The notes below the pieces were generated by a model, which saw nothing but the letters and a program-made list of their open reading frames with translations, searched no databases and had not been told where the DNA came from. DNA of 64,000 bases from Cupriavidus pauculus (GTDB lineage Bacteria > Pseudomonadota > Gammaproteobacteria > Burkholderiales > Burkholderiaceae), in the NCBI RefSeq assembly GCF_002858765.1, contig NZ_PJRP01000001.1, forward strand, positions 126,414 to 190,413, written 5' to 3'. The stretch's first letter is position 1, and each line of letters begins with the position of its first letter. The position numbers were made by a program, and so were the translations under genes. This document shows, piece by piece, positions 24,676 through 27,660 of this stretch.

Positions 24676-25179
24676 CTACCTTTCCTTGGGCGCCAGCATC
24701 GTGCCGCGGCACTTCGGGCTGCCGCAACGGCACTCGTATTCCTTCTTCAGCTTCTTCGTATAGCGTGCGTCAATGACCAGGCCGTAGTCATAGAACAGCT
24801 CTTCGCCCTCTGCGATATTGCGCAGCGCATGGATGAAGACGCGGCCCTTCTTCTCGCGCGCCTCGCAGTTGGGCTCGCAGGCGTGGTTGATCCAGCGCGC
24901 ACGGTTGCCGCCGAACTTGGCATCGATGACGTTGCCGTCGTCCAGGCTGAAATAGAACGTATGGTTCGGGTCCGTCGGATCGTGCGGATGGCGCTTCAGC
25001 GCTTCCTTCCAGGAAATGTGCTCGCCCTTGTATTCGACCACCCGCTCGCCCTCGGCAATCGCGCCAACCGCGTAGACGCCCTTGCCATGTACGCCCGACT
25101 GGCGCACCTCGATGCGATCGCTGGCGGTCTTCTTCTTGCCAGCCTTCAGTTCCTTGGCGTCCTTGGCCTTGTCCGACAT
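24676..25179 (-). CDS. Small SET-domain protein-lysine methyltransferase
   Basis: A 167-residue stand-alone SET protein. A Lys-rich N-terminal tail (residues 1-20) is followed by 'VRQSGVHGKGVYAVGAIAEG', the S-adenosylmethionine/active-site motif NHACEPNC (98-105), ELFYDYG with the catalytic tyrosine (Tyr132), and a post-SET zinc cluster CRCGSPKCRG (Cys150, 152, 157 with Cys105). All key residues are present, so it should be active. SET proteins methylate lysines in proteins, histones in eukaryotes. The start at 25179 has AGGAAT. It diverges from hupB across the GTATAC array; HU as substrate is only a hypothesis. Confidence 0.9.
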   Translation of the reverse strand: MSDKAKDAKELKAGKKKTASDRIEVRQSGVHGKGVYAVGAIAEGERVVEYKGEHISWKEALKRHPHDPTDPNHTFYFSLDDGNVIDAKFGGNRARWINHACEPNCEAREKKGRVFIHALRNIAEGEELFYDYGLVIDARYTKKLKKEYECRCGSPKCRGTMLAPKER

Positions 25180-25323
25180 TCTGATATTCCTGCGGTGGTG
25201 GGCCGGTCCAGTCCGGCGCGAACCGGATGATACCCGTGCGGCTGTGTCAGGTATACGCATCATCGGCCGAGCCAACCCGGACACGTTTACCGCGCCCATC
25301 GACGTATACCGGGATGCTGCCGA

Positions 25324-25332
25324 TGTGGATAA
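25324..25332 (-). promoter_or_regulatory. Consensus DnaA box 1
   Basis: TTATCCACA on the minus strand, a perfect match to the high-affinity DnaA box. It lies inside the GTATAC array. Confidence 0.7.
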
Positions 25333-25345
25333 CCCGGGTCATTTT

Positions 25346-25354
25346 TGTGGATAA
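25346..25354 (-). promoter_or_regulatory. Consensus DnaA box 2
   Basis: TTATCCACA on the minus strand, 22 bp (about two helical turns) from box 1 and in the same orientation. Confidence 0.7.
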
Positions 25355-25527
25355 GCGCATGGGTTTGATGTGGGCTGCCTGGGGCTGGCATGGGGAACGT
25401 ATACGAACAACTTGGCAGGTATACGCCGTTCATCCCATCCCGAAGGATGAGTCATCCACGCGGGCCAACATTCCATCCCTGTGCTTTCGGTATACGTAAA
25501 CGCTTGATCCGTTTGACGTATACGGGG

Positions 25528-25536
25528 TTATCCACA
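25528..25536 (+). promoter_or_regulatory. Consensus DnaA box 3
   Basis: TTATCCACA on the plus strand, five bases after the GTATAC at 25518 and facing the opposite way from boxes 1 and 2. Confidence 0.7.
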
Positions 25537-26155
25537 GAAACAGGGGTCGTTTACCTATCACTACTATCTGTATACATGAAAGAAAGATGTAAACCATACG
25601 CAGGAGGACGGTCGCCGGGACGTATACGCCAAAGACGCCGGGGTGGAACCGGCACTGCTGTCCTCCATCGCCATTTGCAGTCGCGATGAAAAAACAGGCA
25701 CCGTCCCGGCGAAGGTGCGAGGCGGGTTCGCGGTATACGTCGGCCCGCCCGCCACCCCATACGCTCCCTGCCGTGCAGAAGCCCGTATACGGCCCTGCCA
25801 AGCCGTATACGCGTCACGACATCCCGGAGGCCGTGCAGACGCCCTGAACGCGTCCTGGGGCGTATACGCGGTTCCTGTGGCGTTTACGGCGGTTGGGTGC
25901 CCAGAAGGCTACCGGTGCGTATACGGGGCCTATGCCGACGCCTCTGCCGGCATTTCTCTTGCTCGCCATTCCTGTAAAAAACCCGCCAACCTTGACCTGG
26001 CGCGGCCTGCGCGCCGAGGGCCGGTAACAAACTGTTCCCGGTGCGGCGTGTCCGACACGGTATGATGTGGCCCGCGGCGTCTTTGCCGGGGCGGCTTCCA
26101 GCCAAGCCTCCCGGCCCGGACGTCAGTGTTTTTTCAACTCGATACGGAGTGAAGC

Positions 26156-26434
26156 ATGACGAAAACTGAACTGATCGACGCGATCGCAGCTGGCGTGGAC
26201 GGTCTGACCAAAGCCAAGGCCGAGCAGGCCCTGAACGTGACCCTGACCGCCATCATGGATGCCGTGGCCAAGGGCGAGACCCTGAGCCTGATCGGCTTTG
26301 GTACCTTCAGCAAGGGCGAACGTGGCGAGCGCATGGCCCGCAACCCGCGCACCGGCGAAGAAATCAAGGTGGAAGCTGCGAAGACCGTGAAGTTCAAGGC
26401 AGGTCAGAAGTTCAAGGACGCCGTCAACCAGTAA
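26156..26434 (+). CDS. hupB: HU-family nucleoid protein
   Basis: A 92-residue HU/IHF-family protein of standard length. The sequence 'MTKTELIDAIAAGVDGLTKA' begins the dimerisation helices, 'GETLSLIGFGTFSKGER' leads into the DNA-embracing arm, and the arm tip carries the intercalating proline in ARNPRTGEEI. It matches HU rather than IHF, and HupB fits the Burkholderiales naming. The ribosome site is CGGAGTGA. It bends and constrains DNA non-specifically and often assists DnaA at origins. The upstream gap with palindromes and DnaA boxes could influence its expression. Confidence 0.95.
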   Translation: MTKTELIDAIAAGVDGLTKAKAEQALNVTLTAIMDAVAKGETLSLIGFGTFSKGERGERMARNPRTGEEIKVEAAKTVKFKAGQKFKDAVNQ

Positions 26435-26527: not shown

Positions 26528-26536
26528 TTATCCACA
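26528..26536 (+). promoter_or_regulatory. Consensus DnaA box 4, downstream of hupB
   Basis: A perfect TTATCCACA in the 239-bp gap between hupB and the DUF2272 gene, exactly 1000 bp from box 3 and in the same orientation. Confidence 0.6.
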
Positions 26537-26673
26537 CCATTTTCCCCCTAGCTCCGCGTGGAGAATCGCACAGCCGGCCGGGCCACTTCACAGGCCTGCG
26601 GCAACCACGCGAAAATGTCATCCACGCTTGGCTGATCAAGGCCTTGCGCGAGATCAGGAATCACGAGCCTGAC

Positions 26674-27660
26674 ATGCCGTTCCGCTTGCCGCAGCGCACA
26701 TCTCCACAGCCTTATTCACAGCGCTTTCCACACAAACGTCCACAGCATTCTCCACAGGCGCGCACGCGTACCTGGCAGGGGCTGATGGCGGTGGTGGCGC
26801 TGGCCGTTCTGTGCGGTTGCAGCACCTCGCCGCCGCGTCCTGCCCGCCCACAGGCGGTGCCCTTGCCCGACTACGAGCGCGTGGCCACGCCGCCTGGTGC
26901 CACGGCGCGTGAACGGGTTGTCGATATTGCCCTGCAGGAATGGCGCAAGTGGGGCAGCCAGGTGGTGCGCATCGGCCGTGACGATTCGGCGTGTGTCACC
27001 CAGAGCCCTCTGCCCGCCCCGACGGCGGCGCTGCCGGGCAATGGCGCTGGCGCCAACGGCGCGACGGTTCAGCCGTCGGCCGACGTCGACATGGAAGAGG
27101 ATGGGGACAGCCAGTGCTTGCGCTTCCCCGACGGCACCGGCATGGAAGCCACGCCCCAGGGGTGCCGGATGGCCCAACGCTACTGGGGCATCGTGGGCGA
27201 GGCGCCGGACTGCCGCCAGGTCACCCAGGGCGCGTGGGCATGGTCGGCAGTGTTCATTTCGTGGGTAATGCGCAAGGCTGGGCTCGATAACGACCAGTTC
27301 CTGACGGGGCAGTCGCATTCGATGTACGTGGTGGACGCCCGCGATGGCATCCTGCCGCGCCCCGCCTTCCACGTGGAGCCTGTGCCCGGTCTGCCGCGCC
27401 CCGGCGACATGATCTGCGCGGGCCGCGGACGCGACAAATACCTGTCCGATCCGTCCGAAATTGGCTTCGGCACGACGCCCATGCACTGCGACATCGTGGT
27501 CGAAGTGGATCGCGCTGCCAACGTGGTCAAGGCGATCGGCGGCAATGTCCAGCAATCGGTGTCGATGGATGTGATCGACCTGAACGACGCTGGCCAGCTC
27601 GACGGCTTCACGAATTCGCACATGCCGTGGCTGCTGATCCTGCGCAACGACCTGCAGTAA
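26674..27660 (+). CDS. DUF2272 lipoprotein
   Basis: A 328-residue predicted lipoprotein of the DUF2272 family. The membrane segment 'LMAVVALAVLCGCSTS' ends in a lipobox LCGC. The DUF2272 part includes 'AWSAVFISWVMRKAGLDNDQ', 'HSMYVVDARDG' and 'PMHCDIVVEVD', with Cys, His and Asp residues suggesting an NlpC/P60- or CHAP-like fold; that link is inference. The N-terminus is odd: residues 9-28 are a low-complexity Pro/Gln/His run encoded by 12-bp repeats. The real start may be later; an ATG at 26785 has AGGGG close in front but gives a very short signal without charge. Confidence 0.75.
   Translation: MPFRLPQRTSPQPYSQRFPHKRPQHSPQARTRTWQGLMAVVALAVLCGCSTSPPRPARPQAVPLPDYERVATPPGATARERVVDIALQEWRKWGSQVVRIGRDDSACVTQSPLPAPTAALPGNGAGANGATVQPSADVDMEEDGDSQCLRFPDGTGMEATPQGCRMAQRYWGIVGEAPDCRQVTQGAWAWSAVFISWVMRKAGLDNDQFLTGQSHSMYVVDARDGILPRPAFHVEPVPGLPRPGDMICAGRGRDKYLSDPSEIGFGTTPMHCDIVVEVDRAANVVKAIGGNVQQSVSMDVIDLNDAGQLDGFTNSHMPWLLILRNDLQ
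26704..26756 (+). repeat. 12-bp array of DnaA-box-like words
   Basis: YCACA cores begin at 26704, 26716, 26728, 26740 and 26752, exactly 12 bp apart. Extended to nonamers, the second is TTATTCACA (fits TTATNCACA) and the fifth is TTCTCCACA (one mismatch); the others are weaker. Read as protein they give a four-residue pattern (SPQP, YSQR, FPHK, RPQH, SPQA), unusual in front of a lipoprotein signal. Confidence 0.65.

Follow-up and report, generated by a model that had tools for sequence, protein, structure and literature searches.

The question raised by this locus is why the intergenic region between a gene for a SET-domain protein (24676..25179, minus strand, PF00856), its left border, and hupB for an HU-type DNA-binding protein (26156..26434, plus strand, PF00216), the right border of its main part, is crowded with one short palindrome in Cupriavidus pauculus. 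In the window, as we call the whole 64,000-nucleotide stretch that was analysed, we counted 13 GTATAC palindromes within the 674 bp of positions 25251..25924 and only two further copies (at 488 and 54121), seven of those in the array being of the octamer form CGTATACG, all in agreement with an earlier note on this DNA. Shuffles of the whole window contained GTATAC with a mean of 2.22 and a maximum of 7. The genome holds 163 copies in 7.40 Mb, hence the array accounts for 8% of them in 0.009% of the genome. The gaps along the array were, in order, 53, 95, 20, 71, 28, 52, 52, 111, 52, 20, 57 and 57 bp; the spacing of about 52 bp proposed earlier is thus found in four of the 12 gaps (51-53 bp) and not in the others. 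The gaps were more even than random ones (CV 0.47 versus a random mean of 0.87, equally even in 0.8% of 5000 trials) and four of them shared one 3-bp bin (1.9% of random trials), both tests having been picked post hoc with the gaps already known. Helical phasing of the array sites at 10.5 bp was not significant (6.7% of 2000 trials).

The GTATAC cluster is real but incomplete as a description, since these 674 bp (25251..25924, no strand) hold 18 copies of the wider word GTWWAC (13 GTATAC, 3 GTTTAC and 2 GTAAAC), and the remainder of the 64-kb window nine. Shuffling the SET-hupB intergenic region 200 times yielded a mean of 1.06 and a maximum of 4 such sites. The sister AT palindromes GAWWTC, CTWWAG, CAWWTG and ACWWGT occur there 0-1 times each and are not enriched, thus plain AT-richness does not explain the array and was rejected as its cause. 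A narrow-pattern search of the genome revealed similar clusters at five other places, two of them at rep/par loci of other contigs.

The earlier note knew of no system that uses this word, yet GTATAC is one form of GTWWAC, a known methyltransferase target in Ralstonia, Burkholderia and C. necator. In B. cenocepacia the orphan methyltransferase BCAM0992 forms m6A in GTWWAC (PMC7364216), the enzyme for this motif in R. solanacearum GMI1000 is RSc1982 (PMC11460718), and in C. necator H16 it is targeted by the orphan enzyme E6A55_RS13360 (PMC12645576); in H16, methylation was detected at 95.3% of the motifs (PMC6742796). The GTWWAC enzyme has been stated to be conserved throughout the Burkholderiaceae (PMC5390034). 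Deletion mutants were made in B. cenocepacia (PMC7364216) and in R. solanacearum (PMC11460718), so the methyltransferase is not essential in these species. A larger relative nucleoid size was reported for the B. cenocepacia mutant (PMC7364216), which would fit an effect on replication without proving it.

The genome of the window encodes two proteins above the cut-off of the Pfam family N6_N4_Mtase, the candidate P0002 and a second one of 493 aa that is 35% identical to it. P0002 resembles the NCBIfam models PRK11524 and CcrM, scoring below both cut-offs, and is flanked by genes that, read by eye, we take to be trpB and trpA. A relative with at least 60% identity was found in 85 of 120 family genomes, a count that omits two of the 87 genomes matched (G029, 33% identical, and G070, decayed) and in which 14 of the remaining alignments run through one stop codon, probably beyond the gene end. 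We infer that P0002 is the GTWWAC enzyme of this genome and that the array is methylated in this strain. The comparisons support the array sites as predicted m6A targets of the family's orphan methyltransferase. The enzyme gene is retained in G028 and G060, two reduced genomes (about 1.2 Mb), and the decayed copy of G070, from the same genus group, has internal stops.

The earlier note listed no DnaA boxes, of which we found four perfect copies of TTATCCACA at this locus. Two lie on the minus strand (25324..25332 and 25346..25354), with a spacing that is kept in Ralstonia, and the third on the plus strand (25528..25536), where by the alignment it adjoins a putative unwinding stretch. The three span 213 nt in the order -,-,+, the fourth follows 1 kb further at 26528, and 4 of the 13 perfect boxes of C1:1-400000 are found within 1.2 kb at the array. 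The third box and the DnaA-trio-like CTA repeats behind it, which end in ACTACTAT, form a segment (25528..25567, plus strand) with a GC content of 40%, versus about 66% in the window. Directly past the repeats stands a GTATAC (25570..25575, no strand) that is present in 20 of 20 aligned genomes, and further downstream a GTAAAC (25589..25594, no strand) present in 17 of the 20. The repeats depart from the described DnaA-trio, for which at least three contiguous trios (NAN) are demanded while the window's CTA-TCA-CTA-CTA has two, and the spacer between box and trio is 18 bp, beyond the 16 bp allowed in the published search (PMC8287927). The same interrupted run with two contiguous trios occurs in three other Cupriavidus genomes, and an uninterrupted fourfold CTA in 5 of 10 Cupriavidus genomes and in the Ralstonia copies. 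A second box cluster lies beyond hupB (26528..26756, plus strand), consisting of TTATCCACA at 26528, TTATTCACA at 26712 and TTCTCCACA at 26748. Such a combination of a perfect box with one-mismatch boxes was found in all 10 genomes of the genus, hence the Cupriavidus origin may be bipartite around hupB with 26528..26756 as its second half; the cluster is absent in both genomes checked outside the genus, one Ralstonia and one g4 genome.

The position of the locus on the chromosome was assessed by GC skew, computed over local stretches of 279-400 kb. Along C1:1-400000, the cumulative skew is close to its lowest value over 148-180 kb, a band that includes the array (151.7-152.3 kb); dnaA is at about 252 kb, 100 kb away, and parS and gidA are 40 kb away. 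For the Cupriavidus genome G026, the skew minimum was 8 kb from the array, and the near-minimum band begins about 3 kb beyond the array and extends to dnaA. An origin at the SET-hupB locus of Ralstonia was not supported by skew in the one genome analysed (G024), whose local minimum is 96 kb off. For C. metallidurans CH34, three perfect DnaA boxes within 213 nt were reported at the GC-skew switch, about 90 kb from dnaA (PMC2864759), and the three-box span in the window has the same length. Since the window joins a DnaA-box cluster, a GC-skew minimum and an AT-rich putative unwinding stretch beside a box, the GTWWAC array region is very probably oriC of chromosome 1 in this Cupriavidus. Among the functions suggested in the earlier note, two receive support in combination, those of replication control and of a modification target. 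A partition-like site was rejected, because the array holds no parS consensus and the four TGTTNCACGTGNAACA matches of the genome lie 40 kb off, at C1:109898-111550, beside gidA.

In the comparison that the earlier note proposed, the array is retained at hupB while its spacers diverge in 10 of 10 genomes of the genus. These genomes, our own included, carry 10-19 GTWWAC sites at the locus (shuffle means 0.5-1.3). A second collection, in which 23 of 80 loci had hupB divergent from SET and were counted (57 other loci being left out), gave 12-18 sites in 14 of 14 Cupriavidus-type contigs, one of them titled Ralstonia sp. 25mfcol4.1, and 2-3 sites in 9 of 9 Ralstonia-type or related contigs; it overlaps with the first genome set, regions being identical for 2 of the 14 and 7 of the 9. 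The box geometry -,-,+ with spacings of 22 and 182 bp was found in 9 of 9 Ralstonia-type genomes; among the 10 Cupriavidus genomes, 6 have a single mismatch in one or more of the three boxes. We then aligned 20 regions, 10 from the genus of the window, 9 Ralstonia-type and 1 other. They share a conserved block consisting of a DnaA box (mismatched in 6 of the 20), about 18 bp, CTA repeats, GTATAC and GTAAAC. Relatives preserve the degenerate GTWWAC and not GTATAC as such, carrying GTTTAC or GTAAAC at equivalent places. Conservation in the aligned core was nearly equal for columns of shared sites (0.80) and for the other columns (0.78), so that stronger column conservation of array sites was not found and fixed sites are few in the core, and the sites outside the core stand mostly at differing positions among genomes. 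Thus the number of array sites, rather than their position, seems to be kept.

Furthermore, we searched the family with R1, a sequence model of 40 bases which stops at the CTA repeats and thus leaves out the GTATAC behind them. The segment at 25528..25567 is its only match in the window (E 2.5e-10) and is itself among the 18 sequences that built the model. At a threshold of E 0.05, R1 matched 90 of the 120 family genomes, and some of the weakest matches may be due to chance. Matches often occur as two opposed copies about 3 kb apart; among the matches listed, they often lie 2-9 kb from the SET gene, and some of those in g20 genomes lie 50-250 kb from it or on another contig. From the 90 genomes, 56 matches in methyltransferase carriers (44 genomes, Cupriavidus matches not among them) and 6 in genomes with no intact methyltransferase (5 genomes) were chosen for spread over genera. 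In the carriers, a GTWWAC begins within 34 nt downstream of 54 of the 56 matches, versus 2.5 expected from shuffles, in a set whose matches are not independent, since second matches of 12 genomes are included, and whose loci were chosen when GTWWAC counts in the 1.5 kb upstream of SET were already known for many genomes. Only downstream sites were counted, because some of the R1-building sequences hold GTTAAC before the repeats. The site starts 0-7 nt past the end of R1 in 44 of the 56. After removal of the four R1-building matches (two of G015, one of G075 and one of G024), whose downstream sites were known beforehand, the count was 50 of 52. For G095, G104, G065 and G020 (g20) the match examined is not the nearest to SET and may be an extra copy.

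In genomes with no intact methyltransferase, a downstream GTWWAC was found at 1 of the 6 matches, two of which are partial and perhaps no origins. G010, for which no enzyme match was obtained, lacks GTWWAC at both R1 copies although the stretch is very AT-rich, and shares its genus group with carriers having three sites. The density of GTWWAC was 4.53 per kb within 600 bp of the matches examined in carriers versus 0.77 per kb elsewhere in the loci retrieved. The site beside these matches is variously GTATAC, GTTTAC, GTAAAC or GTTAAC, thus the target of the methyltransferase is kept and not one word. These data support a place of GTWWAC beside the putative unwinding stretch that is kept across the family, and R1 matches are likely origins across the Burkholderiaceae. 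GC-skew minima coincided with the predicted origins in G101 and G083, which were selected for this analysis because each is in two contigs.

The arrangement of R1 matches varied. Nine Ralstonia-type genomes (L142, L155-L161 and G024) have three matches each among those listed; in G024 they lie at C1:3038719, 3180366 and 3203689, over about 165 kb, the third without GTWWAC. At L195, L196, L197, L199, L200, L204, L208 and L223 the likely origin consists of two opposed unwinding modules about 3 kb apart, and all copies have a GTWWAC downstream of the repeats except one in L204, which has it only before them.

The same genome carries GTWWAC clusters at other replication loci. Upstream of dnaA, whose start was judged by eye, four sites and one perfect DnaA box lie within about 0.8 kb (L012:8026-8628, G000:C1:251025-251627). 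Ten sites were found in 1.04 kb at the RepA_C/ParA/ParB origin region of a second replicon (L008:6505-7545, G000:C4), which also has 22 matches, 13 of them exact, to the iteron consensus of CH34 chromosome 2. Four more lie within the 45 bp of L009:8062-8106 (G000:C6), with a Rep3-type initiator gene on one side and a parA on the other. A further cluster of nine sites and one DnaA box (L006:6709-7278, G000:C1) lies between CAAX-protease-type and LysE-type genes, partly within the long 5' part of the LysE open frame, with no adjoining replication gene and no R1 match.

Our preferred reading, to which we assign a probability of roughly two in three, is that the array is the main part of oriC and that its methylation state controls initiation. 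DnaA would bind the boxes and open the duplex at the trio-like stretch, at about 25555-25594, and the family's conserved orphan N6-adenine methyltransferase, candidate P0002, would methylate the 18 GTWWAC sites on both strands. Passage of the fork would render all array sites hemimethylated together, and this state would mark a freshly fired origin and lower re-initiation. The effect of methylation on initiation is proposed by analogy and could follow two routes. A reader protein that binds hemimethylated GTWWAC may delay re-firing; a search for SeqA gave no match in 60 family genomes, our own included, and was positive for the E. coli control, hence any reader would be a different protein. 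Alternatively, m6A may act directly on melting and DnaA contact, and as the best conserved sites adjoin the unwinding stretch, such a direct effect on opening is also possible. More tentatively, and with somewhat less than even confidence, we propose that the Burkholderiaceae have evolved a methylation clock for replication independently of Dam/SeqA and of CcrM, in which a single orphan methyltransferase would mark GTWWAC at the oriC unwinding element, upstream of dnaA and at chromid origins, a further protein would read the hemimethylated state, and the sites would have been amplified to 10-19 in Cupriavidus to strengthen the mark.

The region could instead serve the two genes it separates, the sites acting as epigenetic switches of the divergent SET and hupB promoters and any origin function being separate or absent. 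Three conserved methylated GTWWAC sites do overlap predicted -35 elements in R. solanacearum, in a report whose available text mentions no DnaA boxes at the locus (PMC5390034). Nevertheless, 18 sites over 674 bp are more than two promoters need, the unwinding module of other genera carries the sites with no hupB beside SET in the loci searched, and the GC skew, like the DnaA boxes and the trio-like repeats, is in keeping with an origin, so we regard this explanation as improbable. Slightly less probable still is a locus near oriC that titrates or resets DnaA, comparable to datA and DARS of E. coli, which are DnaA-titration and reset loci, with the true origin upstream of dnaA. Such an arrangement would agree with the distance of 100 kb to dnaA and with the perfect box and four GTWWAC sites which that gene has upstream of its own, and a putative origin with dnaA and three DnaA boxes of at most one mismatch was described in C. 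necator NH9 (PMC6379261). It is opposed by the GC-skew minimum, which lies at the array and not at dnaA both here and in CH34 (PMC2864759), and by R1, which matches the array and has no match at the locus upstream of dnaA (L012).

The idea put forward in the earlier note, a nucleoid-organising or partition protein that loads serially on GTATAC palindromes, draws on the more than random evenness of the spacing and the seven CGTATACG octamers, and a site number kept while positions drift is what a multivalent reader would produce. We consider it very unlikely in its general form, because the consensus parS sites are elsewhere and it is the degenerate GTWWAC that relatives preserve, not GTATAC itself; one special case of such loading, by a protein that reads hemimethylated sites as SeqA does, would agree with the control of initiation by methylation that we prefer. 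Neutral accumulation, whereby GTWWAC is avoided in genes and survives mainly in long intergenic regions, appears the least credible of all. GTATAC is scarce in the genome (163 in 7.4 Mb) and GTWWAC marks of R. solanacearum favour upstream regions (PMC5390034), but the dinucleotides of the region itself predict 1.06 sites where 18 are present, similar AT palindromes show no excess, and GTWWAC keeps a fixed position next to the unwinding stretch in 54 of 56 matches.

Parts of this picture are already published, namely the putative CH34 origin (PMC2864759), the three Ralstonia GTWWAC sites read as promoters (PMC5390034) and GTWWAC near the B. cenocepacia origins (PMC7364216). A marker-frequency analysis that includes Cupriavidus has been reported as well (PMC13342612). 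What appears to be new is the amplified array of Cupriavidus and the constant position of GTWWAC next to the unwinding stretch; our literature search, outside which lay preprints and most subscription journals, found in the texts accessible to it no paper joining these pieces or describing the Cupriavidus array, and none placing GTWWAC at the unwinding stretch. Why many orphan methyltransferases are kept lacks an explanation, and a fixed GTWWAC at the unwinding stretch of the origin across the family, together with its lack at most of the few non-carrier matches examined, gives a testable reason for one of them. Moreover, a precise origin is indicated in a family in which the main origin of B. 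cenocepacia has been called unclear (PMC4948915), and the array offers a starting point for identifying a protein with the role of SeqA in bacteria that lack SeqA and have several replicons to coordinate.

Compared with the DnaA-trio system, the locus has in common a DnaA box, a spacer and CTA (3'-GAT-5') repeats, and differs in its spacer (18 bp against the 16-bp limit), in the interruption of the trio run and in the additional GTWWAC (PMC8287927). The putative origin of CH34 chromosome 1 has the same three boxes, 213 nt and skew switch, with GTATAC and methylation not mentioned in the portions available of that report (PMC2864759). The RS_RS16825/RS_RS16830 intergenic region of R. solanacearum shows the same SET-HU arrangement with three methylated GTWWAC sites in two strains, versus 18 sites here, and was interpreted as divergent promoter control (PMC5390034). 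The B. cenocepacia origins, with CACAG and GTWWAC methylation, share the target word near origins, with at least two GTWWAC sites between methylated DnaA boxes at positions unique to each replicon; neither a fixed place at trio-like repeats nor an array of 10-19 sites is described in the accessible part of that study (PMC7364216).

With the Dam/SeqA system of E. coli, the locus shares dense sites of an orphan adenine methyltransferase at a putative oriC, touching the predicted unwinding element, and the genome shares a further cluster of target sites upstream of dnaA. The oriC of E. coli carries dense GATC sites of Dam, and SeqA is the reader of their hemimethylated state. The target is GATC there and GTWWAC here, GATC occurring 1-5 times per Cupriavidus-type SET-hupB intergenic region and not being the enriched word. 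The candidate enzyme here belongs to Pfam N6_N4_Mtase, and SeqA was not found in the 60 family genomes. The comparison suggests that these bacteria may time the copying of their chromosome by methylation as E. coli does, with different parts.
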